Virus record (IMG/VR): IMGVR_UViG_3300035698_014527
Coordinates: 1-33,062 of that record
DNA: 33,062 nucleotides
DNA from: a virus
Reading direction: 5' to 3' (one strand)
Positions within the stretch are counted from its first letter, which is position 1. Every line of letters starts with the position of its first letter. Below, one piece after another: positions 14-22,224 of this stretch. The translations under genes and the position numbers were made by a program. The notes beneath the pieces were generated by a model. That model was not told where the DNA came from, did not search any database, and saw only the letters and a list, made by a program, of their open reading frames with translations.

Positions 14-134
14 GTGACCCCCACCCCCAGTTTATTTGTTCTCATTGTGTTCTCAAGGTGTCAAACCCCCCGCAGTAAAATTTCACCAAACCAACTCCAC
101 CCGTTACGCCTAACCTAACCCCAACCCAAACTTG

Positions 135-163
135 CTGACAGCCCCTTACACAATCAGTACGCT
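135..163 (+). promoter_or_regulatory. putative sigma70 promoter for the exported-protein gene
   Basis: CTGACA (135-140), a 17-nt spacer and TACGCT (158-163). The same -10 hexamer is used by the next promoter at 667-672. Predicted start near 170 leaves a leader of about 40 nt before the ATG at 211. Confidence 0.45.
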
Positions 164-210: not shown

Positions 211-564
211 ATGAAATTAAAACTAAGTTCGTTCTGCTTGACTGTCATGCTGACGATGGTGCTAATACCATTCTCTGTCAGCGCCGGACACCCAGTAGGT
301 TTTGTGGATATTCGAATAAGCCCACCAGAGGTAACCCCCCAGCCCGAGGTACTGCAGTTCTCGGCCAAGGCTGAGACATTCACTATCCATGCCATTGACC
401 GAATCATTATCCAGGACTCGGACAAAGATACCCTCTTTGCCAAATCTGCAGACCTTGAACAACCGATGCAGGCGGGCTCAAGGGCTGCAGCAATTTACCG
501 AACTAACGTGGCAACTGCTCAGTTGTATGACGGCCCTGTCGAGGTTGGTTGGCTCAAAGCCTAA
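211..564 (+). CDS. small exported protein of unknown function
   Basis: The 117-residue product opens with a clear Sec-type signal peptide: basic MKLK, a hydrophobic core over residues 6-22 and a VSA cleavage motif ending near residue 25. The mature part of about 92 residues has no recognised family, no cysteine and no membrane segment. An in-frame ATG follows a weak purine-rich stretch (AAGCGAG). The gene stands alone between its own promoter (135-163) and an intrinsic terminator (601-625), unlike the overlapping genes downstream, which suggests independent control. A periplasmic role such as altering the host envelope is possible but only inferred. Confidence 0.7.
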   Translation: MKLKLSSFCLTVMLTMVLIPFSVSAGHPVGFVDIRISPPEVTPQPEVLQFSAKAETFTIHAIDRIIIQDSDKDTLFAKSADLEQPMQAGSRAAAIYRTNVATAQLYDGPVEVGWLKA

Positions 565-625: not shown

Positions 626-643
626 ATGCGCGTGACAAACTTA

Positions 644-672
644 TTGACAAAGGTGTAACGCTGGTATACGCT
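644..672 (+). promoter_or_regulatory. putative sigma70 promoter for the candidate ncRNA
   Basis: Consensus TTGACA (644-649), 17-nt spacer, TACGCT (667-672); an overlapping TGnTATACG extended -10 (662-670) is also present. It lies just after a terminator and before about 500 nt lacking a convincing gene. The -35 is embedded in a motif shared with 1206-1223. Confidence 0.6.
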
Positions 673-678
673 GTCCCT

Positions 679-1179
679 CAATACCTCGATTACTCGTGAC
701 AGTGGCCTTCTATTAGAAGCCATGTGTTCCGCCATAGTATAGCAGCGAGCAGCTTGACGATAAATTGGGGCGCGCTATTCAGGATAGTTGTAGAAGATGG
801 GTCGGAGCCCCCGAATCCCACTGCAGCAGAAGTAGTATTCCAAAGTCCGGCCCACTATACTCAGGGCTGGATGCCTTTCGGGTGAGGGGCGTCCAAACTT
901 GTAACGAGGGCTTGTTACCCTATCGACTCCGAAAACCGGTTATGAAGCAGGGGTTACGAACTTCAACCATCTGCGGCACCCCGTCAAGGGAGACCCGCAG
1001 ACTTATTAAACACTCGGAGGTGTGTCCCCTAAGCCGCATCTCCGGATATAGCAGCCCTGCCATAGGTAGCTGCGTCGTTGGTCAAGAGTTGCCGCTCTGT
1101 GCCGACAGCTGGCAAGAAGTTTTACCTTCGAGCTGGCAAATTGGCCCTGAGGTCTGATTGCCTCAGGGCCTTCTTATTT
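679..1179 (+). ncRNA. candidate large structured non-coding RNA
   Basis: This 500-nt segment starts downstream of a good promoter and ends at a perfect intrinsic terminator. No ORF in it looks real: the longest (765-1157) needs a TTG start, is rich in Ser, Arg, Cys and Pro, and stops inside the terminator hairpin. Strong local helices are visible: 703-723 (TGGC/GCCA and TTCT/AGAA arms with one bulge), 798-820 (TGGG/CCCA and CGG/CCG), 846-871 (TCCGGCCC/GGGCTGGA), 903-920 (GTAAC/GTTAC), 970-1001 (TCTGCGG/CCGCAGA enclosing CCC/GGG), 1089-1115 (TTGCC/GGCAA enclosing CTGT/ACAG) and 1117-1130 (GAAG/CTTC). AGCTGGCAA occurs twice (1107, 1131). Large phage RNAs such as GOLLD and ROOL show that such genes exist in phages, but I cannot assign this one to a class. 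Confidence 0.45.
1143..1179 (+). terminator. perfect intrinsic terminator
   Basis: GGCCCTGAGG (1143-1152) pairs without mismatch with CCTCAGGGCC (1161-1170) across an 8-nt loop, followed by TTCTTATTT. It closes the candidate ncRNA unit. Confidence 0.85.
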
Positions 1180-1205: not shown

Positions 1206-1223
1206 AACTTGTTGACAAACGTG
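1206..1223 (+). promoter_or_regulatory. TTGACA-containing motif upstream of the small-gene operon
   Basis: AACTTGTTGACAAACGTG matches 638-655 (AACTTATTGACAAAGGTG) at 16 of 18 positions, and AAC-TT-TTGACAAA recurs loosely at 6604-6617. TTGACA (1212-1217) could be the -35 of the operon starting at 1275, but I see no convincing -10 about 17 nt downstream (CAAAGT at 1235-1240), so an activator or a different role is possible. Confidence 0.35.
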
Positions 1224-1274
1224 CCATATGGTGCCAAAGTGAGCCTTCACATGACATTAAAGGGGCTTTACGCC

Positions 1275-2859: not shown

Positions 2860-2932
2860 GTGTATGGAAGAGGTTCGCCGCGAGGTTTACGGTGAAGATT
2901 ACGAACTAATTTTTGGAAAAGGTAAAAAGTAA
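2856..2932 (+). CDS. one of two alternative micro-ORFs in the junction
   Basis: Two tiny overlapping frames fill the 72 nt between larger genes. ATG 2856 (ATGA junction, AGGGG 6 nt upstream) gives 17 residues, MSVWKRFAARFTVKITN, ending at 2909. ATG 2864 gives 22 residues beginning MEEVRREVYGEDYE and ending at 2932 as TAATG into the next gene. The spacing favours the first start, the coupling favours the second. They may serve only to keep ribosomes moving along the operon. Confidence 0.3.
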
Positions 2933-3621
2933 TGAGCAATTTTCAAATAGAAAACGATTACGAAGAGATTAAAGAAGCCGCCAGAGATCGTGGGTGGAGG
3001 GTGCCAGGAATATTCGTGGATGATGATGTTGCATGTCTGTGGATGGCCTATTGGTTAGAGATGAAAAAATATGAAAATATGCTCAATTCTGGAAGTCTGC
3101 CTGACGATGTGCCTCGTCCACCTTTACACAGCGGGCACAACAGGATGTCAATGTGGAAGGGCAGCCCTCTTGCAAAACGCAAAGTGCCTCGGGAGAACAC
3201 CCCAGTAAACAAAGCATACCGGCTTCTGTACGGATGGCTACAGTGCATCAAGCAGCAGAACAAGTGCATCAAACGCCGAAACAAACTTATCAAGCGCCTG
3301 CGGGCCCAACTGGCTGAGCTGAAGACTGAAAACGCTGACTTGAAGGCTGTCAAGTGCATCAAACGCCGAAACAAACTTATCAAGCGCCTGCGGGCCCAAC
3401 TGGCTGAGCTGAAGACTGAAAACGCTGACTTGAAGGCTGTCAAGTCTGAGCTGCTTAATGGCATCGCATTGGACGGGCACAACCACACCGAGTTGGGTGA
3501 AAAATTCAAGCATTCGGCAGTGGCGCTGGCTACAGCTAGGCAGGAGTTTGCCCGAGTAACCGGAGAGAACAGCAGGCTTCAGGGCGTGGTCAACAACTTG
3601 TTGGACGGAGGTAAAGGCTAG
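2932..3621 (+). CDS. coiled-coil protein with a duplicated 30-residue segment
   Basis: A 229-residue protein. Residues 1-100 look globular, with Trp and Pro present. Residues about 105-175 are a highly charged helix of Lys/Arg-rich then Leu/Glu-rich heptads, typical of a parallel coiled coil, and a second helical stretch closes the protein. Residues about 111-140 and 141-170 are identical because the DNA holds a perfect 90-bp tandem duplication (3261-3440). The start overlaps the preceding frame at TAATG. No enzymatic motif is seen. The duplication lengthens the coil by 30 residues without breaking the frame, so its length is tolerated. Confidence 0.7.
   Translation: MSNFQIENDYEEIKEAARDRGWRVPGIFVDDDVACLWMAYWLEMKKYENMLNSGSLPDDVPRPPLHSGHNRMSMWKGSPLAKRKVPRENTPVNKAYRLLYGWLQCIKQQNKCIKRRNKLIKRLRAQLAELKTENADLKAVKCIKRRNKLIKRLRAQLAELKTENADLKAVKSELLNGIALDGHNHTELGEKFKHSAVALATARQEFARVTGENSRLQGVVNNLLDGGKG
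3261..3445 (+). repeat. perfect 90-bp tandem direct repeat inside a coiled-coil gene
   Basis: Copies at 3261-3350 and 3351-3440 are identical base for base, with a partial third start (CAAGT, 3441-3445). Each encodes 30 residues beginning CIKRRNK and ending DLKAVK. Lack of silent changes points to a recent duplication. Confidence 0.95.
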
Positions 3622-4932: not shown

Positions 4933-5240
4933 AAACAAACATATCAATAGATTTAAACAACGAACAGCTCAGCCAACTGGCGGATCACCTTGGTGGCAAA
5001 GAGACGACTCGAAGGGCTAGCCGAGCAGACATCGTAAAATTATGTCAGCAATTTGTGGCCGGTATGGTTGCTGAGCAAGCCAAAATCGATCGAATTGTCC
5101 ACAAGACTCCGAGTGCGCCCAAGGTTATGCTTAGGAGCAAGTTGTACATTGTGGCACAGGAAGACGCTGAGCATCTCAAGGGTAAGTCGGACGGATTCAT
5201 ACGAGGCTACAACACCGTGAAACGTGGAAGCAAAAAATGA
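4929..5240 (+). CDS. helical basic hypothetical protein
   Basis: A 103-residue product with ATGA junctions at both ends. After a short strand (NISIDLN), helices follow, including SRADIVKLCQQFVAGMVAEQ. The C-terminus is Lys/Arg-rich. It directly precedes the J-domain gene, so the two are co-translated. Function unknown. Confidence 0.6.
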   Translation: MKTNISIDLNNEQLSQLADHLGGKETTRRASRADIVKLCQQFVAGMVAEQAKIDRIVHKTPSAPKVMLRSKLYIVAQEDAEHLKGKSDGFIRGYNTVKRGSKK

Positions 5241-5908
5241 GTGATTTGTACAACGTTCTAGGGATTACCAAAGACGCCTCTCAAACGGATGTGAGAAAAG
5301 CTTTCAGGCGCTTGATGTCAGCTCACCACCCTGATCGGGCGGGTGGGGACAGTGAAATGTTTAGGGCCGTTAAAGAAGCCTATGAAGTGCTCTACGATGA
5401 ACCAAAACGAAAAATCTACGATGATACTGGAACTTTCAGAACCGTGGCGGAAGACACTCTGGTGGCTCAGGCGTATCGGCATCTGGCGGCATTGTTTCAC
5501 CAAATAATCGAGGAAAGCTTAGCGGCCAACCTTGACCTGGCGAGCAACGATCTGGTCAAAGCGGTTGAAGATTCTCTGGATGAAAACGTCAGGCTGTCAA
5601 AAGATGCTATGAGAGCTAACCAAGAGACTCGGAGAAAACTTGGAATAGTGAAGGATAGACTGCACCGGAGCGAGTTCACCAAAGCTAACGCTAAAATGCA
5701 GCAAGCGGTTCTGGAGGGCGTTTTGGAGGGAAAAATTAAAAATGCCCAGAGTGAAAAGATCGCCATAACCCAAGCTTTAGAATTGCTGGCGCGTATGCGG
5801 GAGCTTTCTAAGGGATACTATTACGTGACCGACGAGGCCCCTAGGATAACGGCGTTTCACGACCCATTCACGTACTCCGGTGCATATTCAAGTTCCAGAA
5901 CATACTGA
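5237..5908 (+). CDS. J-domain (DnaJ-like) co-chaperone protein
   Basis: A 223-residue protein. Residues 1-65 are a complete J domain: LYNVLGI at the start, a basic helix II (VRKAFRRLMSAHH), the invariant HPD tripeptide at 31-33, and helix III (FRAVKEAYEVL). J domains stimulate the ATPase of host DnaK-type Hsp70. There is no Gly/Phe region, zinc-binding domain or canonical client-binding domain; the rest is a long charged helical region, probably coiled coil, ending in an aromatic, Ser-rich tail. This resembles specialised J proteins that target Hsp70 to one task. In a phage this could be replication-complex remodelling or virion assembly; the context does not decide. ATGA junction with the upstream gene. 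Confidence 0.85.
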   Translation: MSDLYNVLGITKDASQTDVRKAFRRLMSAHHPDRAGGDSEMFRAVKEAYEVLYDEPKRKIYDDTGTFRTVAEDTLVAQAYRHLAALFHQIIEESLAANLDLASNDLVKAVEDSLDENVRLSKDAMRANQETRRKLGIVKDRLHRSEFTKANAKMQQAVLEGVLEGKIKNAQSEKIAITQALELLARMRELSKGYYYVTDEAPRITAFHDPFTYSGAYSSSRTY

Positions 5909-5910
5909 CC

Positions 5911-6303
5911 ATGGGCTTCACGGCCTACAAAAAATCTGCCCTCAGTTGGGTCATGCTTAAAAACCCTGACGACGAGGTCGAAGGGTACGCTAGATCGATA
6001 AGGTACAGACAAGCTTTATAGATCGCTTGTCTGTACTACGCCGCAGAAGGTGAGGGTCTTCCGGAAATATATGATAGGGCCAAACTGCTGAGAGAGCTGG
6101 GATGGAAGGTGCATGTCGACCATATCGTACCGTTGAGATCAAAAAATGTATGCGGGCTGCACGTCAGGTGCAACTTACAAATTCTAGGGGAGCGCCCCAA
6201 TCTGGAAAAATCAAACCTCTGGTGGCCGGACATGCCGGAGCGACTGAACTGGCAGATTGGATTCGACATAACCAGCGCGCCTCACCAGCTCACGTTACTG
6301 TGA
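5911..6303 (+). pseudogene. HNH endonuclease interrupted by an in-frame amber codon
   Basis: From ATG 5911 the frame reads MGFTAYKKSALSWVMLK... for 36 codons, meets TAG at 6019-6021, then stays open for 94 codons to TGA 6301-6303. The second part holds the HNH core: VDHIVPL (DH at codons 70-71), CGLHV, NLQIL, then N and KSN, as in the small phage HNH nucleases of about 130 residues near terminases. Such nucleases nick or cut DNA and often assist packaging or act as homing enzymes. TAG is a normal stop elsewhere here (3619, 7249, 18632). The gene is thus a point-mutation pseudogene, a downstream-initiated fragment, or a readthrough gene. The stop lies in the loop of a perfect inverted repeat. 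Confidence 0.75.
6003..6036. repeat. perfect 12-bp inverted repeat around the HNH amber codon
   Basis: GTACAGACAAGC (6003-6014) and GCTTGTCTGTAC (6025-6036) flank a 10-nt loop (TTTATAGATC) that contains the in-frame TAG. No T-run follows, so it is not a standard terminator. It may be an mRNA stem-loop, a protein-binding site or a recombination trace. Confidence 0.9.
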
Positions 6304-6605
6304 GCTACAATTACCGGTGTACCAAAGGCGATTGCAGGAAACGCACGACCCTGCCAAAAATGACGGAGTTCTACTTGAGAGTTCCACCTTGCAAAGGGTG
6401 TGGCAGGAAGCACACGCTCAGCTTAGATCCTGCAGTCAGGAAGCAAACACTCCAGCGTACATGTAAGTGCCGTGGCATCCGCTGGCCTCACCGCGTAGGC
6501 ACCTACTTAAACCAGCTGGAGTTTTGTGATCACGCGAAAGTTGACTTGACTTTTGAGGGTTCCAGAGTGTATGTCATGGCTCCTGAGGATGTTTGCCCAT
6601 TCTAA
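6300..6605 (+). CDS. zinc-ribbon-like Cys-rich protein
   Basis: A 101-residue product. GTG 6300 is chosen because it makes a GTGA junction with the HNH stop and gives a sensible start, [12 protein letters not shown]; an open frame upstream to 6102 overlaps the HNH coding region and is probably not translated. Cysteine pairs C-x4-C (7, 12), C-x2-C (near 31, 34) and C-x-C (near 53, 55), plus later CDH, suggest one or two structural zinc sites. It is the last gene before the late promoter at 6610. Nucleic-acid binding is plausible; function is not known. Confidence 0.6.
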
Positions 6606-7254: not shown

Positions 7255-9003
7255 GTGGCGCTATCCAAGAAACTGGAAGGATTTTTAGACAGGGTCGGTG
7301 CCATTGGAGACAGATCCACGGCCATGAAACAGTTGTCAGGCTGGATGACCCGAAACCTGAAGTTGAATGGTCGCGCATACACATTCAAGAATCACGAGAT
7401 GCAGGAACACATAGCTTCCGACCAGCATCCGGATAAGGTTGTGAGGAAGTGCTCACAGATAGGCTTGACAGAGTTGTCGCTCAGGCTGACTGCAGCTATT
7501 GCTGCAGTCACTCGATCAAGGATCATATACGTCTTCCCCTCGGCCAAATTTTCGGAGAAAGTTTCAGCTGACAGATTCCTTCCGATTATTCAGGAATCAC
7601 CACTGCTGAGATCCATGCAACACGCTGAAGTCAAATCAGCTTCGATGAGGAAGCTAGGCAACTCCACAATCTATTTTCAAGGAGCCTCTGGCACTACCCA
7701 AGCAATTTCCATACCAGCTACGCATTTGATCGTGGACGAAGAGGACTTCTGTGACCAAGTTGTTCTGGGGCAATTCAACGCACGTCTCAGACACGCTGAA
7801 GAAGACCCAAAGACGGGTATTCGAGGTATGCGCCAAAGGTTCTCTACCCCCACCATACCAGGCTATGGAGTCACAGCGAGGTATGACAACTCAGACCAGA
7901 AGTCCTACATGGTGCAGTGCGACAAATGCAACACATGGCAAGCGCCGGATTACTACACAGATTTCGTGATACCTGGCTTCGATGGCTTGATGGAAGAATT
8001 TGAGAAGACGGATCTGGGCAATCCAAAATTCAACATCGATGGGGCCTACGTTAAATGCCAAAAGTGTGGCACCGATTTGTGGGCGGCCCTGATGAACCCT
8101 GCGAGACGTCAATGGGTGGCCAAGTACCCAGAGAGAATTATGCTTTCAGGTTATGCGGTATCCCCAATCGATGTTCCTCACTACAACAAAGTACCTGCCA
8201 TATTCAGACAGTTGGGGGAGTACACGCTTCAGGATCACCGGAACTTTGTTCTGGGTATGCCCCATGAGGACAAGCACAATTCATTTCTGCTGTCGATATT
8301 TATAAACCGGACAGATGCTTACATCGTGGAGCTCTACGAGGCCAAAGCGGCGGGAGCCATGAGTGGTATCAGATTCGGCATTGACATAGGTAAAATTTCT
8401 CACTTGATTATTGCCAAGCGCCCAAGCAGCAATACCACGGATTTGCACATCATCATGCTGGTGCAACTGTCCATAAAGGATGGATTGTTGTCCGACCAGA
8501 TCCAGACGTATATTGATGCGTACAAACCGGATACCGTGGTGCTCGATGCAGCCCCAGACTTTTCCACCCCGCAAGCCTTGATAGCCAATAACCGGTATGG
8601 TCAGGTGTTCGGGTGCGAATATCAGAAGCACGTCATCGGGGCCTACACGCACATAGACCCTAGGCCCGATGACGGAGTGGTAAAAGCTGGCCGATCAGGA
8701 ACCTTGATGGATACCATGGCCCGCCACAACGCTGGGAAGGTCCACTACCCTATGGGAACCCCTGAAGTGGAAGTTGTTAAAAAACACCTGAAGACTACCA
8801 AGAAATTGGTCAAGACCACGGAACTTGGGGACGTCATTGTTTTCCCCAAACCAGAAGACCCAGATCACTACGTGCATGCTCTGAATTATGTGAATATAGC
8901 CGACACTATTGCCTCGGATCACAGCATCTTGCCCAAGATAATCGGGGTGTTACCTGGGGTCACTGCGGTCAAGATTGGATCTAAAGTCCTGGACAGGCCT
9001 TGA
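7255..9003 (+). CDS. terminase large subunit, GpA family
   Basis: A 582-residue packaging motor starting with GTG at 7255 (AAGGG upstream). It cuts concatemers and pumps DNA into proheads with ATP. The ATPase half shows an atypical Walker A-like KCSQIGLTE (65-73), as in lambda A relatives lacking a classical P-loop, and a Walker B HLIVDEED (157-164). A zinc-ribbon-like pair follows: CDKC (222-225) and CQKC (268-271). The nuclease half has acidic residues in GIDIGK (D377) and VVLDAAPDF (D431), then DHYVHALNY near residue 542. Length is slightly below lambda A (641). Its family suggests cos-type cutting, but no cos site is identified here. Confidence 0.93.
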   Translation: MALSKKLEGFLDRVGAIGDRSTAMKQLSGWMTRNLKLNGRAYTFKNHEMQEHIASDQHPDKVVRKCSQIGLTELSLRLTAAIAAVTRSRIIYVFPSAKFSEKVSADRFLPIIQESPLLRSMQHAEVKSASMRKLGNSTIYFQGASGTTQAISIPATHLIVDEEDFCDQVVLGQFNARLRHAEEDPKTGIRGMRQRFSTPTIPGYGVTARYDNSDQKSYMVQCDKCNTWQAPDYYTDFVIPGFDGLMEEFEKTDLGNPKFNIDGAYVKCQKCGTDLWAALMNPARRQWVAKYPERIMLSGYAVSPIDVPHYNKVPAIFRQLGEYTLQDHRNFVLGMPHEDKHNSFLLSIFINRTDAYIVELYEAKAAGAMSGIRFGIDIGKISHLIIAKRPSSNTTDLHIIMLVQLSIKDGLLSDQIQTYIDAYKPDTVVLDAAPDFSTPQALIANNRYGQVFGCEYQKHVIGAYTHIDPRPDDGVVKAGRSGTLMDTMARHNAGKVHYPMGTPEVEVVKKHLKTTKKLVKTTELGDVIVFPKPEDPDHYVHALNYVNIADTIASDHSILPKIIGVLPGVTAVKIGSKVLDRP

Positions 9004-9057
9004 CTTTGATAACTGGGTGCTCGATTATCCGCTTAATTCTCACCAAGATTTGAATTG

Positions 9058-10494
9058 ATGGCTGAACCGTCCACCTCGAAAACTATAGTACTGCCCAGAA
9101 ATGTAACGTCTGTAGTGAAGTCGAGAACTGTGGAATCTGCAGCGGCTTCTGGGTCTCCGATCCTAAATCCAGACAAGACGTGGGTTACCCGAGACCCCAG
9201 AACTCAGCGAGCTCAGGGCCAAGTTGTAGCTGCCATCAGAACGTTGGCAAAAGAAAACGGTAATCTGTCTACAGCTGTTTTCCACATGGTGCAGATAGCC
9301 AATTCAAAAATTAAAGTCGCTGCTTACGTTCCTGGTACCACGGAATTTTCCGAGGAAGGGACTATTTTGGCCAGAAACATAATCGCCAGTATGGACACGC
9401 TATACGACTACACTCTGGGGTTTGGCAAGAAGCGGCCAATCGCTATGCTGATTCAGACCCTGTTGAGAGAGGCCGCCATTACCGGTGGGTGCTCCATGGA
9501 GCTGGTACTGGACAAAGCAAGATTCCCAGAAAAATTCCAAGCAGTCGACTATTCGACGCTGGAGTGGGTGTCTGATGGTAAAGGCAGTAAGTACCCTCGC
9601 CAGACTGGGTTTGGCGATCCAATACCGCTAAACATTCCAACGTTCTATGCAGAGTCTCTGCATCAAGAACTTAACACAGCCTACGGCACTTCGATATTCA
9701 GGGCTTCCTTGGACTCGCTATTCGCGTCATCTGACTTTATCGCGGATATGCGTCGGGTACTGTTCAAGTCTGGGCACTCAAGATTAGTGGCAGTTCTAGA
9801 CTCTGAGAAGATACGCGCTTCAGCACCTAAAGATGTTCAGGACGACGACAAGAAGTTGCTGGCGTTCATGAATGAGGTGAAAACCTCAGTGGAAGAGACC
9901 CTGAAAGGTATCGCCCCAGAGGATGCTGTGGTTTCTTTCGATTCTGTAGACTTTGAAACTCAGGACATAGGAAAGACCAAAACTGATTACACGGGTTTGA
10001 TGACCTCCATGGCTAATATGGAAGCCACAGGGCTGAAGACTCCCCCGTCTGTGCTGGGTATGCGCGCAGCTGGGTCTCAGAGCCTTTCCAACACTGAGAC
10101 ATTGATATTTCTGAAGACTGCTGGAGCATTGCAGACCCCAGTCAGCTCAGTGATGAGCCGAGGATTGACTACGGCTTGTAGGTTGTATGGTAGTGACGTT
10201 TACGTGAAGCTGGAATTTGAACCTATAGATCTTAGGCCGGAATCAGAGCTCGAGGCCTTCAAAACCATGAAGGAAGCCAGAATACTCAGACGCCTTAGTC
10301 TCGGGTTAATTACGGATGCTCAGGCGTATTACGAGTTAGACATTCCGTACAATCTTGGGGCACCTAAATTGTCCGGCACCAACTTTGATGTTGAAACTTC
10401 TCAGCAGGACACTTCCACTACTCGAGGGGGCGCTGAGGACAATCTGCAGCCAGGGCAAGACTCCCCTAGAAAAGCTGGTGGGGATTCTCAGTGA
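9058..10494 (+). CDS. portal protein
   Basis: A 478-residue protein starting MAEPSTSKT at ATG 9058; a TTG one codon upstream is less likely. It follows the large terminase and precedes the protease, the lambda B position, and its size fits a portal of the lambda/HK97 type that forms the dodecameric DNA channel. Mid-protein features such as GTSIFRASLDSL, the charged helical stretch at 265-295 and MRAAGSQSLSNTETLIFLK (about 340-358) fit the wing, stem and clip regions. The C-terminal 40 residues are polar, Gln/Ser/Gly-rich and probably disordered. No Shine-Dalgarno is visible. The 54-nt gap before it holds nothing recognisable, and no lambda W-like gene is present. Confidence 0.88.
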   Translation: MAEPSTSKTIVLPRNVTSVVKSRTVESAAASGSPILNPDKTWVTRDPRTQRAQGQVVAAIRTLAKENGNLSTAVFHMVQIANSKIKVAAYVPGTTEFSEEGTILARNIIASMDTLYDYTLGFGKKRPIAMLIQTLLREAAITGGCSMELVLDKARFPEKFQAVDYSTLEWVSDGKGSKYPRQTGFGDPIPLNIPTFYAESLHQELNTAYGTSIFRASLDSLFASSDFIADMRRVLFKSGHSRLVAVLDSEKIRASAPKDVQDDDKKLLAFMNEVKTSVEETLKGIAPEDAVVSFDSVDFETQDIGKTKTDYTGLMTSMANMEATGLKTPPSVLGMRAAGSQSLSNTETLIFLKTAGALQTPVSSVMSRGLTTACRLYGSDVYVKLEFEPIDLRPESELEAFKTMKEARILRRLSLGLITDAQAYYELDIPYNLGAPKLSGTNFDVETSQQDTSTTRGGAEDNLQPGQDSPRKAGGDSQ

Positions 10495-10536: not shown

Positions 10537-12057
10537 ATGCCTACTAGTATTTCATCCAAAGACGTAACCTGTTGGCTCGGCAGTCAGCAGAGCTTAGAGA
10601 TAGTTTTGAATGCCCAAGAAGAATTCAGGGGCAAAGTCTACTCGGGCGAAGATGATGATGATGACGGGGTGCGCAGCCGCATACTTTCTGTAGTCGGGCC
10701 GGTGGCCACAGTGGCCGTACACGGCAGTCTGACTAACGACGACAGTTTCTGGAACTGGCTCTTCGGGATAACCTCGTATAACGATATCCGGAATGCTCTC
10801 GTAGAAGCTGTAGAAAACGCAGAAGTGACTGACATACTTTTGGATATAGATTCCCCTGGTGGAGATGCAAAAGGCATCAACGAACTGTGTGACTTCATTA
10901 AACTTGTTTCAGCCAACCACAAACCCATAACAACCTACATTTCTGGGTCGGCTTCTTCGGCAGCCTATTGGATAGCTTCGGCCACTAACAGGATCTCTGG
11001 CCCTAAAATGTCAGAAGCTGGTAGCATCGGAGTCATAGCCATCGTGCTGGAACAGACTAAGATGCTGGAACAGCGCGGGATAACTGCCCATGTTTTCAGG
11101 GCTGGTAAATATAAAGCATTAGGCAACCCTTTCGAAGAGCTGTCTGAAGACGGCAAGAAGGTCATCCAAGACAAAGTCGACACTATTGAAGGCTTTTTTC
11201 TAGATGACATTGCCATTAACCGGAGTATGGATAGATCCAGCCTAAAGTTAAAAGCAGGCGAAGGCCTAGTGTTCTTCGCTTCAGACGCAGTAGCCAATGG
11301 TTTGATGGATGAAGTTTTAGCCTTTGATGAGCTTTTTAGCCGTCTTGTCAAAGCAAGTAATTCGAATTCGGCTGGTAGAGAAATTTTAACCGAGGATACA
11401 AACATGGGTCTTAAAAAAGTTTTAACCCCAGCTGCAATTGCAGCTATAGCCGGTGGAGCCACTGCTGAGCAAGCCACCGAATTGATGGCTAACGAAGCAG
11501 AACCTACTGAAGCTGAAATTGCTGCAGCCGCTGAAGCTGAAACTGCCCGGCTGGCTGAAGAAGCTGAGACTGCGCGTCTGGCTGAAGAAGGTGCTGGCGA
11601 AGGTGTTGAGCAAACTGAAGCAGAGATTGCTGCAGCTGCTGAAGCCACAGAAACAGCCCGTCTGGAGGCTGAATCCAAGACCGCTGCTGAAGCTGGCGGG
11701 CTGGTCGCACATCTGAAGGAAGAGAACACCACTCTTCGGGAAGAAAATTCAAAATTAAAGGGTGAAGTTGCAGCCAGCGCTTTGGCTTTGACCAACGAAA
11801 CTGCCCTCAAAACTCTTGTCGCTGAATACGTCGGGAACATGTGTGTCGCCTTAGGCGCAACACCTATGGACTTGTCAGCTATGGACACGTCTGTTATTTT
11901 GTCGCAATATACAGAGGTTAGAAAGAAGTACACAGGAAGATTCACTCCTGGGGCTTCCGCGCAAACCAGCGACGAGGATGAAAATGGTGAGTCAGCAGGC
12001 AACTTTGATGACAGGTCTCCAGTTCACAAAGCCTCAGTGGCAGCGAACAAAATTTAA
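10537..12057 (+). CDS. prohead protease (S49/SppA-like) fused to scaffold domain
   Basis: A 506-residue protein of the lambda gpC type. Residues 50-285 are an S49 serine-lysine peptidase: DIDSPGGD (103-110), SGSASSAAYWIA with the likely nucleophile Ser141, and GKYKALGNPFE with the likely catalytic Lys193. The enzyme matures the prohead by cutting scaffold and itself. The C-terminal 217 residues are an Ala/Glu-rich coiled-coil scaffold that can also be made alone from ATG 11404. A short Asp run (39-43) precedes the peptidase. The gene lies between portal and decoration protein, as expected. No Shine-Dalgarno is seen at 10537. Confidence 0.9.
   Translation: MPTSISSKDVTCWLGSQQSLEIVLNAQEEFRGKVYSGEDDDDDGVRSRILSVVGPVATVAVHGSLTNDDSFWNWLFGITSYNDIRNALVEAVENAEVTDILLDIDSPGGDAKGINELCDFIKLVSANHKPITTYISGSASSAAYWIASATNRISGPKMSEAGSIGVIAIVLEQTKMLEQRGITAHVFRAGKYKALGNPFEELSEDGKKVIQDKVDTIEGFFLDDIAINRSMDRSSLKLKAGEGLVFFASDAVANGLMDEVLAFDELFSRLVKASNSNSAGREILTEDTNMGLKKVLTPAAIAAIAGGATAEQATELMANEAEPTEAEIAAAAEAETARLAEEAETARLAEEGAGEGVEQTEAEIAAAAEATETARLEAESKTAAEAGGLVAHLKEENTTLREENSKLKGEVAASALALTNETALKTLVAEYVGNMCVALGATPMDLSAMDTSVILSQYTEVRKKYTGRFTPGASAQTSDEDENGESAGNFDDRSPVHKASVAANKI
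11404..12057 (+). CDS. nested in-frame scaffold protein (Nu3-like)
   Basis: ATG 11404 lies in the protease frame with GAGG (11392-11395) 8 nt upstream, which would give a 217-residue scaffold protein, as lambda Nu3 is made from within C. It begins MGLKKVLTPAAIAAIAGG, runs through Ala/Glu repeats (two copies of TEAEIAAAAEA and tandem AETARLAEE), a leucine-zipper stretch (HLKEENTTLREENSKLKGE) and a hydrophilic C-terminus, where scaffolds usually bind capsid protein. It would shape the prohead and be removed before DNA entry. Confidence 0.75.
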   Translation: MGLKKVLTPAAIAAIAGGATAEQATELMANEAEPTEAEIAAAAEAETARLAEEAETARLAEEGAGEGVEQTEAEIAAAAEATETARLEAESKTAAEAGGLVAHLKEENTTLREENSKLKGEVAASALALTNETALKTLVAEYVGNMCVALGATPMDLSAMDTSVILSQYTEVRKKYTGRFTPGASAQTSDEDENGESAGNFDDRSPVHKASVAANKI

Positions 12058-12558: not shown

Positions 12559-13755
12559 ATGAGCATGAAAACAAAATTTACATTCTCGGATAACACTGGG
12601 GCTCGTCAGGAAGGTGAAGTTGACCTGACTGACTATCGAGTAGCTGCAGGCATGGGCCTGAGTTTGTCACAAATGCTGTCTCAGAAGTATGCGACGGACG
12701 AGTCAAAATATGGCAGTGTGCTCTCGCAGGCATTGGCATCTAACGGGCTGGTCTTGAATTCAGATCACAACATGGGAATCCATGCCACTAAGTTGTCCGA
12801 CGTGTTTAACGGCACACGGATACAAGCGGGTGCTTTGACTTCTCCAGACGGGACAGGTAATGCCACCCCAGCTGGTCGGATCTTCTTCCCTGAGGTAATC
12901 CTGCAAACCATCGCAGCTGCGCTTACGGTGAACAAAGGTGACTTCTTTGAGGGCTTCGAGAGTCTTCTTGGTGGTACAGAAACTGTCAATGCTCCGGAAT
13001 TCAAACGGGCTCGCATTCATTTGACTGCGCCTGAAAATTCAGAGTCCATGGGTACAGCTCAACTTGCTGAGCCACCAAGCATGGTTAGCATCACTGCTGC
13101 GAACACCACTACAGCCATCCCTACCAAGGCGATTGGACTTATGGTGTCTGATCAGGCATTGGCCAACACTTCATTTGATTTAGTCAACACAGTCATGTCT
13201 AAGCAGGCATACGGGGAGCGCGTTCGTCGGGTTGAAGCTCAGCTTTCTGATGTTATCAATGGTAACACTGACTTGGATGCGGATATGACAGCCCTGCCGA
13301 CTTTCTTGGCATCTACGTTGGACGCGGCTTCTACTACTGCGGCCAACTTCAGCCAGAAAGCATGGATTCACTTCCTGCGGGATAACTACCAGACTATGTC
13401 TGTTACCAATGTCCTGATGGGCATCGATACGGCTCTGGATGTTGAAAACCGCAACAACAAGCCGAACAACATGAACGACGATCCACGCAGCCCGCGTATC
13501 GATTCGCTGTTCAATATTGACAATTTGGGTATCACTCCTCCACGAGTGTTCCTGGTTTCAAATTCGGTCGTCCCTGCCAACCGTATAGTGGGCTTGGATA
13601 ACAAGTACGCGCTACGTCGATACATTAACGTTTCCGCAAACTACGAAGCGATTGAGTCGTTTGTCCTACGTCGGGCTAAAGGCTTCCGTGTCGACCACGG
13701 TGAGGCGGTCACTCGGCTGTTTGATGATGCCTTCACCGTAATGGATACAGTGTAA
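12559..13755 (+). CDS. major capsid protein, HK97 fold
   Basis: A 398-residue product starting MSMKTKFTF, with GGAG 10 nt upstream; an in-frame ATG two codons on is possible. It occupies the lambda E position directly after the decoration gene and before a strong terminator. The N-terminal 90 residues are charged and mixed. The middle contains strand-like and helical parts (FFPEVILQTIAAALTVNKGDFF and DQALANTSFDLVNTVMSKQAYGERVRRVEAQLSDVI), consistent with an E-loop and spine helix, and the end (FVLRRAKGFRVDHGEAVTR) resembles a P-domain strand. Individual residues do not prove the fold; order and size do most of the work. Confidence 0.85.
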   Translation: MSMKTKFTFSDNTGARQEGEVDLTDYRVAAGMGLSLSQMLSQKYATDESKYGSVLSQALASNGLVLNSDHNMGIHATKLSDVFNGTRIQAGALTSPDGTGNATPAGRIFFPEVILQTIAAALTVNKGDFFEGFESLLGGTETVNAPEFKRARIHLTAPENSESMGTAQLAEPPSMVSITAANTTTAIPTKAIGLMVSDQALANTSFDLVNTVMSKQAYGERVRRVEAQLSDVINGNTDLDADMTALPTFLASTLDAASTTAANFSQKAWIHFLRDNYQTMSVTNVLMGIDTALDVENRNNKPNNMNDDPRSPRIDSLFNIDNLGITPPRVFLVSNSVVPANRIVGLDNKYALRRYINVSANYEAIESFVLRRAKGFRVDHGEAVTRLFDDAFTVMDTV

Positions 13756-16539: not shown

Positions 16540-17727
16540 ATGCCTTTCGCAGATACCGCAAACAGTTCCTTGGCTTTCATTGAGGAAGTCACTTTTGATA
16601 CCGCCCCGACCACTGGGTTCAAGCTCCTTCGTAACACCGGGGAGTCCATGAACACTGGACTGGAAAGTGCGCAGTCGGAAGAAATCGACGCAGACCGGCA
16701 GTTTACTGGATCAGTCCATGTATCTGGGAGTTCAGCGGGCGACGTCAACCTGCAACTGAGCTACGGGGAGTACGATGCTTTTCTGGAAGCAGTGCTGCAG
16801 TCAGCTGACTGGGCCGCAGGATACTCAGACACAATCACAGTTATCGCCACTCGACTCTGCACGGTCACCTCCACTACGGGCCTGAAGGTGGGCATGATTC
16901 TGAAGATCACTTCGCTGACCACCAGTGCGGATGATGGGGTTTACACTGTAGAAGCAGTCAACTCTTCAACTACTTTCACAGTCGTGGAAGCCATCACTGA
17001 CATCGGATCTGAAACAGGTACAGTAATCCATGACGGCTCTTTGGAGAACGCCTCGGTTGATCGAAGCTTCTCTTTTGAGAAAAATTTCGATGTCGGGGGA
17101 ACCGACAACTTCTTCCTTATGACTGGCATGAAGGCCGCCTCAATGAGTTTGAGCTTCGCCGCTGGAGCTATTGTAAACGGGTCGTTTTCGTTCATGGGTG
17201 CCACTGGTTCGGCTTCTGCTGCGGTATCGCAGGAGGCTTCGGCGTACGCCGCAGCCGGTACTAACGAGCTGATGAATGGGGTATCGAATGTCGAAGGGCT
17301 GACCTTGAACGCAGTTTCTCTTGCGGGAGCTTTCACCCCTATAGCCGCCACTTTTCAGGAGCTGAGTCTGACAGTGGACAACAACCTTCGAGACCAAACT
17401 GCAGTGGGCAGCTTATTCCCAGCGGGTATAGGTTCGGGCCGAATTAAAGTTGAAGCCAGTTCTACCCTGTACTTTGCCAACCAGGACTTGTTTAACAAAT
17501 TCATCATCAACGATTCTGTTCAGTTACGTTTCCAGATTACCGACGCTGCGGATGCCTATGGCAACCGGTATGGGTTCATACTCCCCGAGCTCAAGATCTC
17601 CAGCCATGAGGTTGTAGCCTCCGGCCCAGATTCGGACGTTCTGGCCACAGTGACGTTCTCGGCGCAGAAAGATAACCGGTCTGGAACTTCTAAGTCGATC
17701 ATAATCAGCCGTATAGCTGCTGTTTAA
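16540..17727 (+). CDS. major tail tube protein with an inserted beta domain
   Basis: A 395-residue tube protein (GAGG 8-9 nt upstream of ATG 16540). The N-terminus (SSLAFIEEVTFDTAPTTGF, then LRNTGESMNTG, SEEIDADRQ) and DVNLQLSYGEYDAFLEAVL are typical of phage tail-tube proteins of the lambda V and related type, which polymerise as stacked hexamer rings. Residues about 100-167 (TVIATRLCTVTSTTGLKVGM to TVIHDG) look like an extra Ig-like or barrel module placed inside the tube fold and would face outward. The main fold resumes at residue 168 (SLENASVDRSFSFEKNF). Strong hairpins follow the gene. Confidence 0.85.
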   Translation: MPFADTANSSLAFIEEVTFDTAPTTGFKLLRNTGESMNTGLESAQSEEIDADRQFTGSVHVSGSSAGDVNLQLSYGEYDAFLEAVLQSADWAAGYSDTITVIATRLCTVTSTTGLKVGMILKITSLTTSADDGVYTVEAVNSSTTFTVVEAITDIGSETGTVIHDGSLENASVDRSFSFEKNFDVGGTDNFFLMTGMKAASMSLSFAAGAIVNGSFSFMGATGSASAAVSQEASAYAAAGTNELMNGVSNVEGLTLNAVSLAGAFTPIAATFQELSLTVDNNLRDQTAVGSLFPAGIGSGRIKVEASSTLYFANQDLFNKFIINDSVQLRFQITDAADAYGNRYGFILPELKISSHEVVASGPDSDVLATVTFSAQKDNRSGTSKSIIISRIAAV

Positions 17728-17772: not shown

Positions 17773-17814
17773 GGACGTCAACAAGTTGTTGTACTTGTTG
17801 ACGTCCTCTTTTAT
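17773..17814 (+). terminator. terminator-like 14-bp perfect hairpin
   Basis: GGACGTCAACAAGT (17773-17786) and ACTTGTTGACGTCC (17793-17806) pair perfectly around a 6-nt loop, followed by TCTTTTAT. It should reduce read-through from the abundant tube message into the chaperone and tape-measure genes. Confidence 0.75.
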
Positions 17815-17846: not shown

Positions 17847-18263
17847 ATGGCGTTTGATGCTAAGAAAAATTTACGAAACCGAGACCTTGAAAACGAAGGT
17901 AACTGGCTGGAATACGATGAGGACACTCGGTTCCTCGTAGCCCGTAACCGGAACCCAAAATACAAGGGTTTCATGAGCAAGAGCTGGAGAGAGAACGAAA
18001 AAATCCTGCAGTCAAAAACCAACCATAAAAAGGCGGATAACGTGGCCGACAGTTTTCTGTTAGAAGCTACTGCCACGTATCTTCTGGTAGGCTGGGAAGG
18101 GGTTGTTGTCAACGGTGTGGAGGTCGAGTACTCCCCTGAGCTTGCCATAGAAATTCTGGAAGAACACGACGATATTCGAGCTATGATCGAAGAATTCGCG
18201 GAAGTCCGTGAAAACTTTTTCGAAAAGAACGACAAGCGGGATGCTAAAAACTTGGGGGAGTAA
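17847..18263 (+). CDS. tail assembly chaperone, G-like
   Basis: A 138-residue, highly charged protein between the tube and tape-measure genes, the position of lambda G. G-type proteins coat the tape measure during tail assembly and are absent from the finished tail. The sequence has YLLVGWEGVVVNGVEVEYSPELAIEILEEHDDIRAMIEEFA, the pattern of the phage tail chaperone (minor tail G-like) family. A -1 shift near its end (window 18248-18260) would fuse it to the downstream T-like frame. No Shine-Dalgarno is obvious. Confidence 0.78.
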   Translation: MAFDAKKNLRNRDLENEGNWLEYDEDTRFLVARNRNPKYKGFMSKSWRENEKILQSKTNHKKADNVADSFLLEATATYLLVGWEGVVVNGVEVEYSPELAIEILEEHDDIRAMIEEFAEVRENFFEKNDKRDAKNLGE

Positions 18264-18702: not shown

Positions 18703-21700
18703 ATGGCGTTTGAAATTGATCTAAGCACCGCACGGGCTCGCAGACAAGTCGGATTGCTGGATATAAAAATTCGGCGGTTGGAGAAGACTGCGGATGGTGC
18801 AGCTGCCAAGCTTGGCAGCTCTATGGGTAATATGGGTGGCTCTGCCCAACTGCGCAGAGTTAACGCCAACATAATCGCGGTCAACCATAGCCTGACCCGA
18901 ATGGGAGCTGAATGGATAAAGGCTCAGAACTCAGCGGCTACCGGCACTGCCAGAACAACTTCAGTAGTAGACCTTCAAGCCCGAGCGCTTACGCGAGCGT
19001 CAGGGGCCTCAGATAGGCTTAGCAACTCCTTAGGCACCAACTCTAGGCAAGCCGCAATCCTCCGCTCGGGCATGATGGCCATGGGCACCAGCGTGGGCAT
19101 GTTCACTGCTAGAACGCTGGTTGCAGCCACCGTCACCTACGGGGTAGTTAAGGCACTCAAAGCAGTTGTCACCATTGGTGCAAATTTCACCAGATCTCTA
19201 GCGGCTACTGCAGCCATCGTAGGCCAGTCCAGAGCCGAGCTTGGGATGCTCACTGAGCAAATGTACGACTTGGCTCAGAGCACAAAATTTACAACCACTC
19301 AGGTAGCCGAGGCCTCGACCATCTTGGCCAAGACTGGCCTGAAGACTGCAGATATCGCTTCCGCGCTCCCACCAGTATTAAACCTTGCAGCTATCGGAGC
19401 CATGGACATGGCTAAAGCCGCAGACATAGCCGCTAATGCTATGTTCGGGTTCCAGCTCAAAACTACGGATCTGGAAAGGGTTGTAGACACCTTGGCATTC
19501 GCAGCCACAAACAGCAACACCACGGTACAGCAACTAGGTAGCGCCCTGTCGTTTGCGGCACCTGTCGCTGCTGCAGCCAATGCAGAATTCAGCGAAGTAG
19601 CAGGTATGCTGGCAGTCATGGCGGACTCCGGTGTTAAAGCCAGCCGCGCTGGTACTACATTGCGTAGGGCCTATGTAAATCTTCTAGACCCGAGTGAGAA
19701 AGCCGCAACAGTCTTCAGTGATCTCGGGGTTACTCTTCGGGACGAGGTTACCGGCGAAATGCGCAGCATGGTGGGCATCCTTCAGGACTTCACCAAGGCT
19801 GGCGGAAACGCGGTTGATATTTCCAGAATATTTGGGGTGCGCGCAGCTCCTGGCATGATCGCAGTTTGGAAAGACATGTCCAAAGCCATTGCTGGAGGCA
19901 CTGGAAAATTCGAAGATTTTATGACGCGGCTGAAGACCGAAGGTATCGGGGCCTCCGGCAGAATGCGGGATGCTATGGAGAAAAACTTGATCGACACTTG
20001 GCTGAAGTTCACTTCAGTTCTGTCGGTCTTGGCTACTAAAATATTCGCGCTGGTGGAGGGGCCATTGACGGATCTGGTGGAATACATGACCAAGTTGGCA
20101 AGAGGCCTACAAGGGGTCGGTTACTACATAGATGTAGTCAACGTCCACCTTGGAGGGTGGCGTAAGCTATTCACTGATCTGGCCAAGGACTTCAAAATCG
20201 TGGCTTTTTACGTAGACCGATTCGAGGCGGCTTTGGATAGTTTTTCTGGAAGCGCCTCGATTGCCACGAGGGTGTTCAAGCGAGTGTTTGGGTTTATAAC
20301 CCAAGCCATACGAGACATGCCAATAAACTTTGCGTTCGCCCTCAGAGCTATAGGCGCTAACATGGCAGCGGCGTTCCTCTGGATAGGCACTACGTACGAT
20401 ATTTTCATAGAAAAGTTTGACCGTGGCGTACTCAAAATGGGGCAGGTTTGGGACTTCTCTACCTCAGCTTGGAAAGAGAGTTTTTTCACAGCCTTGGAGC
20501 CGATGTTTGATTGGTTCGCCAAAAAGCTATTGGGGTTCTCGTTATCCATCAGAAACATACCTGGTTTGGAAGACTTGACTAAAACCATGAAAAATCTGGG
20601 GGACTCTCTGCTGTCCAATGGCTCCAACTCTAGTCAAGCCAGAAGAGATTTGAAAGCTGCAAAAGACAGAAATACAGAGATAGACAAAGGAGTAAAACTT
20701 CATGACGCTGAAATAGTTCGACTTGAAGAACTTCAGGGGCTTTACAGATCCTCAAACTTGGCGGCTATAGACGGGTTACTGGCAAAGCGGGATGCTGAGC
20801 TTTTAGCCAGAGATGCCTCGCTGGAGGCCTTGAAAGTTGAGAGGCTTCGAGCTTCAGTCAATGCACGGTTTGCCAAAGATCGACGCAGCATGCGAGTGCA
20901 AGATCTGAATGGGGCTGACCCAACTGCGGCTACCCGAACCCCAATGCCTCAGTTGTCCACTGCCCATAAATCAAGAATGGAAAATGCCCTGAGCGATATG
21001 AAGAAATTCATAAAAGCTCAGAAGGTGGTCACTGCAGAGTTTAAGCAGACTAACAAGCATTCCGTGGCCATGAAAGAGATCAGCCCATTCCAAGCGCTTA
21101 ACCAAGGCATTGCGGGGAGCCGATCAGCACTAGAAGAACTAAACCGAAAGTACATCTCGTCTAAATCTGAACTTGAGGAATATCGTGATTTGGCAGCGTC
21201 TTCCACTCACAAGCAGATAGCACTGGCACAGGAATACCAGGAAAAGATAGACAAGGTGACCACCGCGTATTTAGGCCAAAAAGTGGCGCTGGAGCGCTCG
21301 GTAACCGGACAAACCAATGCTCTGGAACTGCTACGCAGCAAATACGAAATTGTGAGCTCGGCTGTGGATGGTTTGATCCTGCGCCAGAAGGTATCTGCAG
21401 ACATGTCCGAGACGGATGTGATCAAAGGTTTGGATGCACTTAGGGGTGCTGGGCAGTCGCCTACAGAGAAACTTCAGAAGGACTCTGAACAGAAAGCTGC
21501 CATGTTGCAAACAGCACGAACTACTGAGCAGTCTATGTTCAACGAGCATCATGAATTGATGCTCTTATCTGAGACAGAGTACCAGAACAGGATGCTGCAA
21601 CTTGACATGGGTTCAGCTTCCAAAAGATCTGAAATTTGGGGAGGGTATCACAACACGGTATTCGATCTAGCGCAGTCTGTTAGACAGAAAGATTTTGCGG

Positions 21701-22224
21701 GCATGGTGTCAAACGGGGTTGCCATGCTTGACCAAGCGGGCAAAACCAGTAAGACTGCGTTCAATGCCGCTAAGAAGGCCAAAAAAGCTCAGGCAGTAAT
21801 CGCAACTTACTTGGGCGTAGCCGAAGCTTGGAGCTTTGGGCCGATACTAGGCCCTGCGTTTGCAGCCCTGGTGCTGGCCAATGGCATGAATGCTGTCAGG
21901 GCAATCGACGCTACCCAGTTCGGAGGTGGCTCATCGGGTAGCTCAGCGTCTTCGGGAGTATCGGTGTCTGCTGCAGCGTCCTCGGGATCTACGCCGGTAA
22001 TACCTGCGCAGTCTGATTCTTTGTTTAACCAAACCACCACTGGAGGAACCTTGAACACTGTGGACACTTCCAATCGAGCCGCCGATTTGACAGTAAACTT
22101 TTCTATCACTGCGGTTGACGCCAAAGGTGTAGACCAGCTAATAGCCACCAGGAAGCCTCAAATAGTTTCCATGATTCAATCGGCCTACAGTGAACGTGGT
22201 GCCACCGGAGGGCCAGTCAGATGA
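18703..22224 (+). CDS. tape measure protein, TP901 type
   Basis: A 1173-residue protein whose length sets the tail length. Residues about 165-390 hold the TP901 core: LTEQMYDLAQSTKFTTTQVAEA, then VLNLAAIGAMDMAKAADIA and AAANAEFSEVAGMLAVMADSG. A hydrophobic stretch near 130-165 and a second near 1030-1070 (AVIATYLGVAEAWSFGPILG) are the membrane-active segments typical of tape measures. The middle (640-1030) is long charged coiled coil. The C-terminus carries a Ser/Gly linker and ends near GGPVR. At about 0.15 nm per residue the tail would be roughly 170 nm. Confidence 0.93.
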   Translation: MAFEIDLSTARARRQVGLLDIKIRRLEKTADGAAAKLGSSMGNMGGSAQLRRVNANIIAVNHSLTRMGAEWIKAQNSAATGTARTTSVVDLQARALTRASGASDRLSNSLGTNSRQAAILRSGMMAMGTSVGMFTARTLVAATVTYGVVKALKAVVTIGANFTRSLAATAAIVGQSRAELGMLTEQMYDLAQSTKFTTTQVAEASTILAKTGLKTADIASALPPVLNLAAIGAMDMAKAADIAANAMFGFQLKTTDLERVVDTLAFAATNSNTTVQQLGSALSFAAPVAAAANAEFSEVAGMLAVMADSGVKASRAGTTLRRAYVNLLDPSEKAATVFSDLGVTLRDEVTGEMRSMVGILQDFTKAGGNAVDISRIFGVRAAPGMIAVWKDMSKAIAGGTGKFEDFMTRLKTEGIGASGRMRDAMEKNLIDTWLKFTSVLSVLATKIFALVEGPLTDLVEYMTKLARGLQGVGYYIDVVNVHLGGWRKLFTDLAKDFKIVAFYVDRFEAALDSFSGSASIATRVFKRVFGFITQAIRDMPINFAFALRAIGANMAAAFLWIGTTYDIFIEKFDRGVLKMGQVWDFSTSAWKESFFTALEPMFDWFAKKLLGFSLSIRNIPGLEDLTKTMKNLGDSLLSNGSNSSQARRDLKAAKDRNTEIDKGVKLHDAEIVRLEELQGLYRSSNLAAIDGLLAKRDAELLARDASLEALKVERLRASVNARFAKDRRSMRVQDLNGADPTAATRTPMPQLSTAHKSRMENALSDMKKFIKAQKVVTAEFKQTNKHSVAMKEISPFQALNQGIAGSRSALEELNRKYISSKSELEEYRDLAASSTHKQIALAQEYQEKIDKVTTAYLGQKVALERSVTGQTNALELLRSKYEIVSSAVDGLILRQKVSADMSETDVIKGLDALRGAGQSPTEKLQKDSEQKAAMLQTARTTEQSMFNEHHELMLLSETEYQNRMLQLDMGSASKRSEIWGGYHNTVFDLAQSVRQKDFAGMVSNGVAMLDQAGKTSKTAFNAAKKAKKAQAVIATYLGVAEAWSFGPILGPAFAALVLANGMNAVRAIDATQFGGGSSGSSASSGVSVSAAASSGSTPVIPAQSDSLFNQTTTGGTLNTVDTSNRAADLTVNFSITAVDAKGVDQLIATRKPQIVSMIQSAYSERGATGGPVR

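Follow-up and report, generated by a model that had tools for sequence, protein, structure and literature searches.

What is encoded by the longest gap of an otherwise densely packed phage genome? The window, that is, the whole 33,062-base virus record analyzed here, carries a tailed-phage gene set that we read from its sequence: terminase (7255-9003), portal (9055-10494), protease (10537-12057), capsid (12559-13755), and tape measure (18703-22224). These genes place the phage among tailed phages whose distant kin include Pseudomonas phages Lana, PMBT3, and UAntarctica and Vibrio phage SHOU24 (terminase identity, ~35 to 38%). The contig is 94.5% coding, and its longest gap lies at positions 679 to 1177, where a first-pass annotation had proposed a large structured phage noncoding RNA (ncRNA) with its own promoter and terminator.

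The putative promoter of the candidate RNA, ACTTATTGACAAA-N15-TACGCT (639-672, plus strand), contains a -35 box TTGACA at 644-649, a spacer of 17 nt, and a -10 box TACGCT at 667-672, exactly as annotated. We consider it a promoter rather than a chance pair of hexamers because ACTTRTTGACAAA is a group-wide motif, found repeatedly upstream of genes in the window phage and its relatives, including L081 and L082. In the 82-kb relative G005, 18 sites matched the motif with at most 2 mismatches versus none for the reversed pattern; 8 of these sites, the four perfect ones among them, were located 60 to 80 nt ahead of a same-strand ORF, nearly all in intergenic DNA. The other copies in the window are found 63 to 81 nt before genes, whereas the copy at 639 has no convincing gene after it. 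The next copy (ACTTGTTGACAAA, 1207-1240, plus strand) has a weak -10 box and lies 68 nt before the ATG at 1275. At the other end of the unit, the annotated perfect 10-bp terminator was confirmed as a plus-strand intrinsic terminator at 1143-1177, with a stem at 1143-1170 that reaches 11 pairs when a G-U pair is counted, followed by the T-rich tail TTCTTATTT. When the whole window was shuffled 20 times, 18 of the shuffles contained no stem of this kind with a T-rich tail. On sequence grounds, a stand-alone transcription unit of ~500 nt with a phage promoter and a terminator is thus well supported.

Two further features of the motif were observed. In the form AACTTGTTGACAA (positions 639, 1207, and 6605 of the window; G005, corresponding to L126-L130; L081; L082), its -35 box overlaps a TTGT-NN-ACAA dyad; the motif may serve as a regulator site as well. 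Elsewhere in the window, a 14-bp inverted repeat with a T-rich tail (17773-17806) separates genes 16540-17727 and 17847-18263, and both of its arms contain the promoter-like motif ACTTGTTGACGTC.

The left end of the window is ordered as follows: a conserved flank, a promoter-like copy, gene 211-564, a hairpin at 601-627, the promoter at 639-672, the candidate RNA, its terminator, the motif at 1207, and genes from 1275 onward. The flank (17-110; CCCCCACCCCCA ... AAAATTTC) begins the late-strand intergenic region and is common to L081 (575-670) and L113 (5585-5660), as judged from short blastn hits and a matching order of elements. The promoter-like copy (130-163, plus strand) consists of ACTTGCTGACA, a 17-nt spacer, and TACGCT, differs from the motif by 3 mismatches, and lies 81 nt 5' of the next gene. 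This small gene (211-564, plus strand) has a good codon score and a signal-peptide-like protein start. Its product matched no known family, and a search for relatives of the gene that would locate the cassette elsewhere found none; an ORF for a secreted protein in L082, compared as a possible counterpart, gave no significant match. The gene is followed on the plus strand by a terminator-like hairpin (601-627; GGCCTCCAATCGGGGGTC TTTTTT), which two Rfam matches below threshold aligned as a terminator stem.

Relatives were gathered by terminase and portal, and the nearest ones (L005, L006, L108, L109, and L131-L133) end before the region of interest. In L081 and in L113/G005, both with 64% terminase identity, the conserved flank runs directly into a motif promoter and genes, and both cassettes are absent. 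L082 also reaches a comparable place, and the unit is absent there. Since the matching regions of L081 and L113 lack the unit, its sequence context marks it as accessory in this phage group and as a moron-like insertion. Morons are promoter-gene-terminator cassettes located between phage genes, normally with a protein gene. Like them, 639-1177 appears as an inserted cassette with its own predicted promoter and terminator, but unlike them, it holds no convincing protein gene. The large gaps of UAntarctica, Lana, PMBT3, L007, and L035, inspected as possible counterparts, proved unrelated, and an ORF-poor stretch with the same promoter in L105 (1500-2240) likely contains a 50-amino-acid (aa) gene and has a weak fold (z score, -1.3). 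The related contig L081/L105 (DAOVXW010000001.1) sits in a Dehalococcoidia metagenome-assembled genome, a host assignment by binning that we regard as doubtful.

The first-pass annotation had found no credible ORF in the gap. This holds for the frame at 765-1157, which is noncoding: its codon score of -0.258 resembles that of out-of-frame windows and is below that of every tested gene, and no relatives of it were found. In contrast, a plus-strand ORF of 53 aa starting with GTG (724-885) had been missed. Its coding status is ambiguous, since its codon score of -0.03 falls between the two distributions, with 3% of true in-frame windows scoring lower and 4% of out-of-frame windows scoring higher. 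It has a weak Shine-Dalgarno (SD) sequence, and no homologue was found in the collected loci, phages, Pfam, or PHROGs. We consider it more likely that 724-885 is untranslated.

We then evaluated the predicted fold of the candidate transcript (679-1177, plus strand, ~500 nt). The whole unit gave a z score of -4.2, or -2.9 once the terminator was left out, compared to -1.4 for the reverse strand. No shuffle among 100, and none of the phage's 66 plus-strand windows, reached its minimum free energy (MFE), and its positional entropy was within the best 5 to 6%. Nevertheless, the structural excess is only moderate, because the composition-corrected z scores of coding windows of the same phage average -0.7 and reach -3.3. 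The six or more helices, several of 7 to 9 bp, that had been noticed by eye are present in the prediction, which contains seven, including ones of 12, 11, 9, and 7 bp at a pairing probability of at least 0.9; equally many strong long helices occurred in 11 of 100 shuffles. The plus-strand hairpins comprise one with a 9-bp outer stem (798-854; P = 0.93), followed by hairpins of 12 bp (868-895; P = 0.98), 7 bp (970-1001; P = 0.97), 11 bp (1014-1045; P = 0.96), and 6 plus 4 bp (1108-1137; P = 0.98). In these models the structural signal is concentrated in the 3' half, with z scores of -2.5 for 886-1142 and -5.4 for 1001-1200 (terminator included) versus -0.6 for 679-885 alone. The long closing stem of the MFE structure (737-783/1056-1102) brought no gain over a shuffled strand (63/100) and is not credible, because shuffling only 737-795 had no cost on average. 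Provisionally, we therefore model the candidate RNA as a row of local hairpins. The proposal of a large structured phage ncRNA is plausible on this basis: the stand-alone unit speaks for it, and a closing stem at chance level, the ambiguous 53-aa ORF, and the lack of homologues, and with it of conservation and covariation, speak against it.

Searches for relatives of the RNA covered several collections. Rfam returned no family at the gathering threshold, GOLLD and ROOL included, and only four noise matches up to an E value of 10. Searches of phages, plasmids, and E. coli with blastn detected no homologue, and none appeared in IMG/VR through seeds from two reading frames, a route that finds close copies only. 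A covariance model of 796-1001, of low power since it was built from a single sequence, retrieved only itself when 18 related phage genomes were searched. ARAGORN called no tRNA in the window, and a degenerate tRNA array was rejected because there was also no Rfam tRNA match up to an E value of 10. tRNAs are present in the relatives L113, UAntarctica, PMBT3, and Lana. In L113, a tRNA-Pro and a second tRNA-like stretch (7331-7500), of which ARAGORN calls only the first, are directly followed by a promoter matching that at window position 6605.

Assembly into a homo-oligomeric cage is a trait of membership in GOLLD and ROOL. GOLLD is a large RNA, often >800 nt, that occurs in phages and prophages, and ROOL is a phage-borne RNA of ~600 nt; tRNA islands often lie near both (PMC12286853). 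The candidate differs from the two families by the absence of an Rfam match and of neighboring tRNA genes in the window, the latter being a frequent but not universal trait, and from ROOL by the absence of supported pseudoknots or an integrated fold. Another parallel is ICP1, a lytic phage without tRNAs, in which RNA-seq proved an abundant noncoding transcript of ~800 nt that also arises from an ORF-less stretch and has not been assigned to GOLLD or ROOL (PMC7567579). The ICP1 RNA is longer and lies near the lysis cluster, and no sequence link between it and the candidate was found. Phage K (Kayvirus), which belongs to another phage group, likewise produces long noncoding transcripts, seen by RNA-seq near tRNA genes (PMC9241854). 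In some phages, ICP1 and phage K among them, few transcripts are more abundant than such long ncRNAs, whose functions are unknown.

We favor, with about even confidence, the view that 639-1177 is an orphan accessory cassette whose product is most likely an untranslated RNA acting as RNA. This self-contained cassette of promoter, ~500-nt RNA, and terminator adjoins a similar cassette (130-627) that encodes a small exported protein, and both lie where the late-strand genes begin. A host-type RNA polymerase would transcribe it from the common promoter of the phage and stop at the intrinsic terminator, releasing a ~500-nt RNA that is probably noncoding. We infer that this RNA would act through its own folded hairpins, mostly those of the 3' half, which may bind a host or phage protein or ribosomes, as in other abundant phage long ncRNAs; a mode of action like that of the known large phage ncRNAs is at most suggested by analogy. 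The RNA cassette would then be dispensable cargo rather than a core part of the phage. That the Lana/PMBT3-like assemblage harbors a hitherto undescribed class of large structured RNA, in the form of a mobile cassette with its own phage promoter and terminator, is a tentative extension to which we give limited credence.

The main rival reading is that the unit produces an mRNA for the 53-aa protein, from GTG 724 to TGA 885, with a structured 3' region, whose hairpins would protect or regulate the message, and a terminator. Its start is 85 nt away from the promoter motif, near the 60 to 81 nt seen for gene starts elsewhere, the codon score exceeds that of 96% of out-of-frame windows, and the structural signal is mostly 3' of the ORF. 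We nevertheless consider it rather unlikely, given that 97% of true in-frame windows score higher, that the SD is weak, that the start falls within a predicted hairpin (698-728), that the ORF lacks homologues, and that an untranslated 3' stretch of 257 nt would be unusual in this phage. Alternatively, the segment could be a decayed insert, a remnant of a gene or element left without present function between a live promoter and terminator. Its orphan status, its lack of a counterpart at the corresponding position in L081 and L113, and its only moderate structure agree with such decay, yet an intact promoter and terminator bracket the unit exactly in a contig that is 94.5% coding, the MFE is below that of all shuffles, and the searched frames show no trace of a protein family; we regard this explanation as unlikely too.

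Two other readings carry less weight. An antisense RNA that regulates phage or host messages in trans would account for a predicted duplex of -48.2 kcal/mol between RNA positions 1043-1091 and the start region of gene 31925, compared to -41.2 kcal/mol for the best control (standard deviation, 2.6). This duplex is, however, one of 46 tests, the mean duplex energy over the 46 gene starts equals that of shuffled controls, and the pairing stretch is already paired in the predicted fold, making a regulator of this kind improbable. A strongly diverged member of GOLLD, ROOL, or another Rfam class would fit the size, the phage origin, and the location in a late-start area where relatives have tRNAs; with nothing but noise at Rfam, it is very improbable. 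If the accessory-RNA reading is true, an orphan cassette with such exact borders would show that phage long ncRNAs come and go as accessory cargo, and the cassette offers a compact unit for deletion, expression, and probing.

Other features were observed downstream in the window. In an HNH-endonuclease-like frame (5911-6300), a perfect 12-bp hairpin (GTACAGACAAGC/GCTTGTCTGTAC) carries an in-frame TAG in its loop, near 6019, which may reflect a decayed gene, an insertion, or recoding. Gene 2932-3621 includes a perfect 90-bp tandem duplication (3261-3440), and positions 5237-5908 encode a DnaJ-domain protein with a distant relative in L006.
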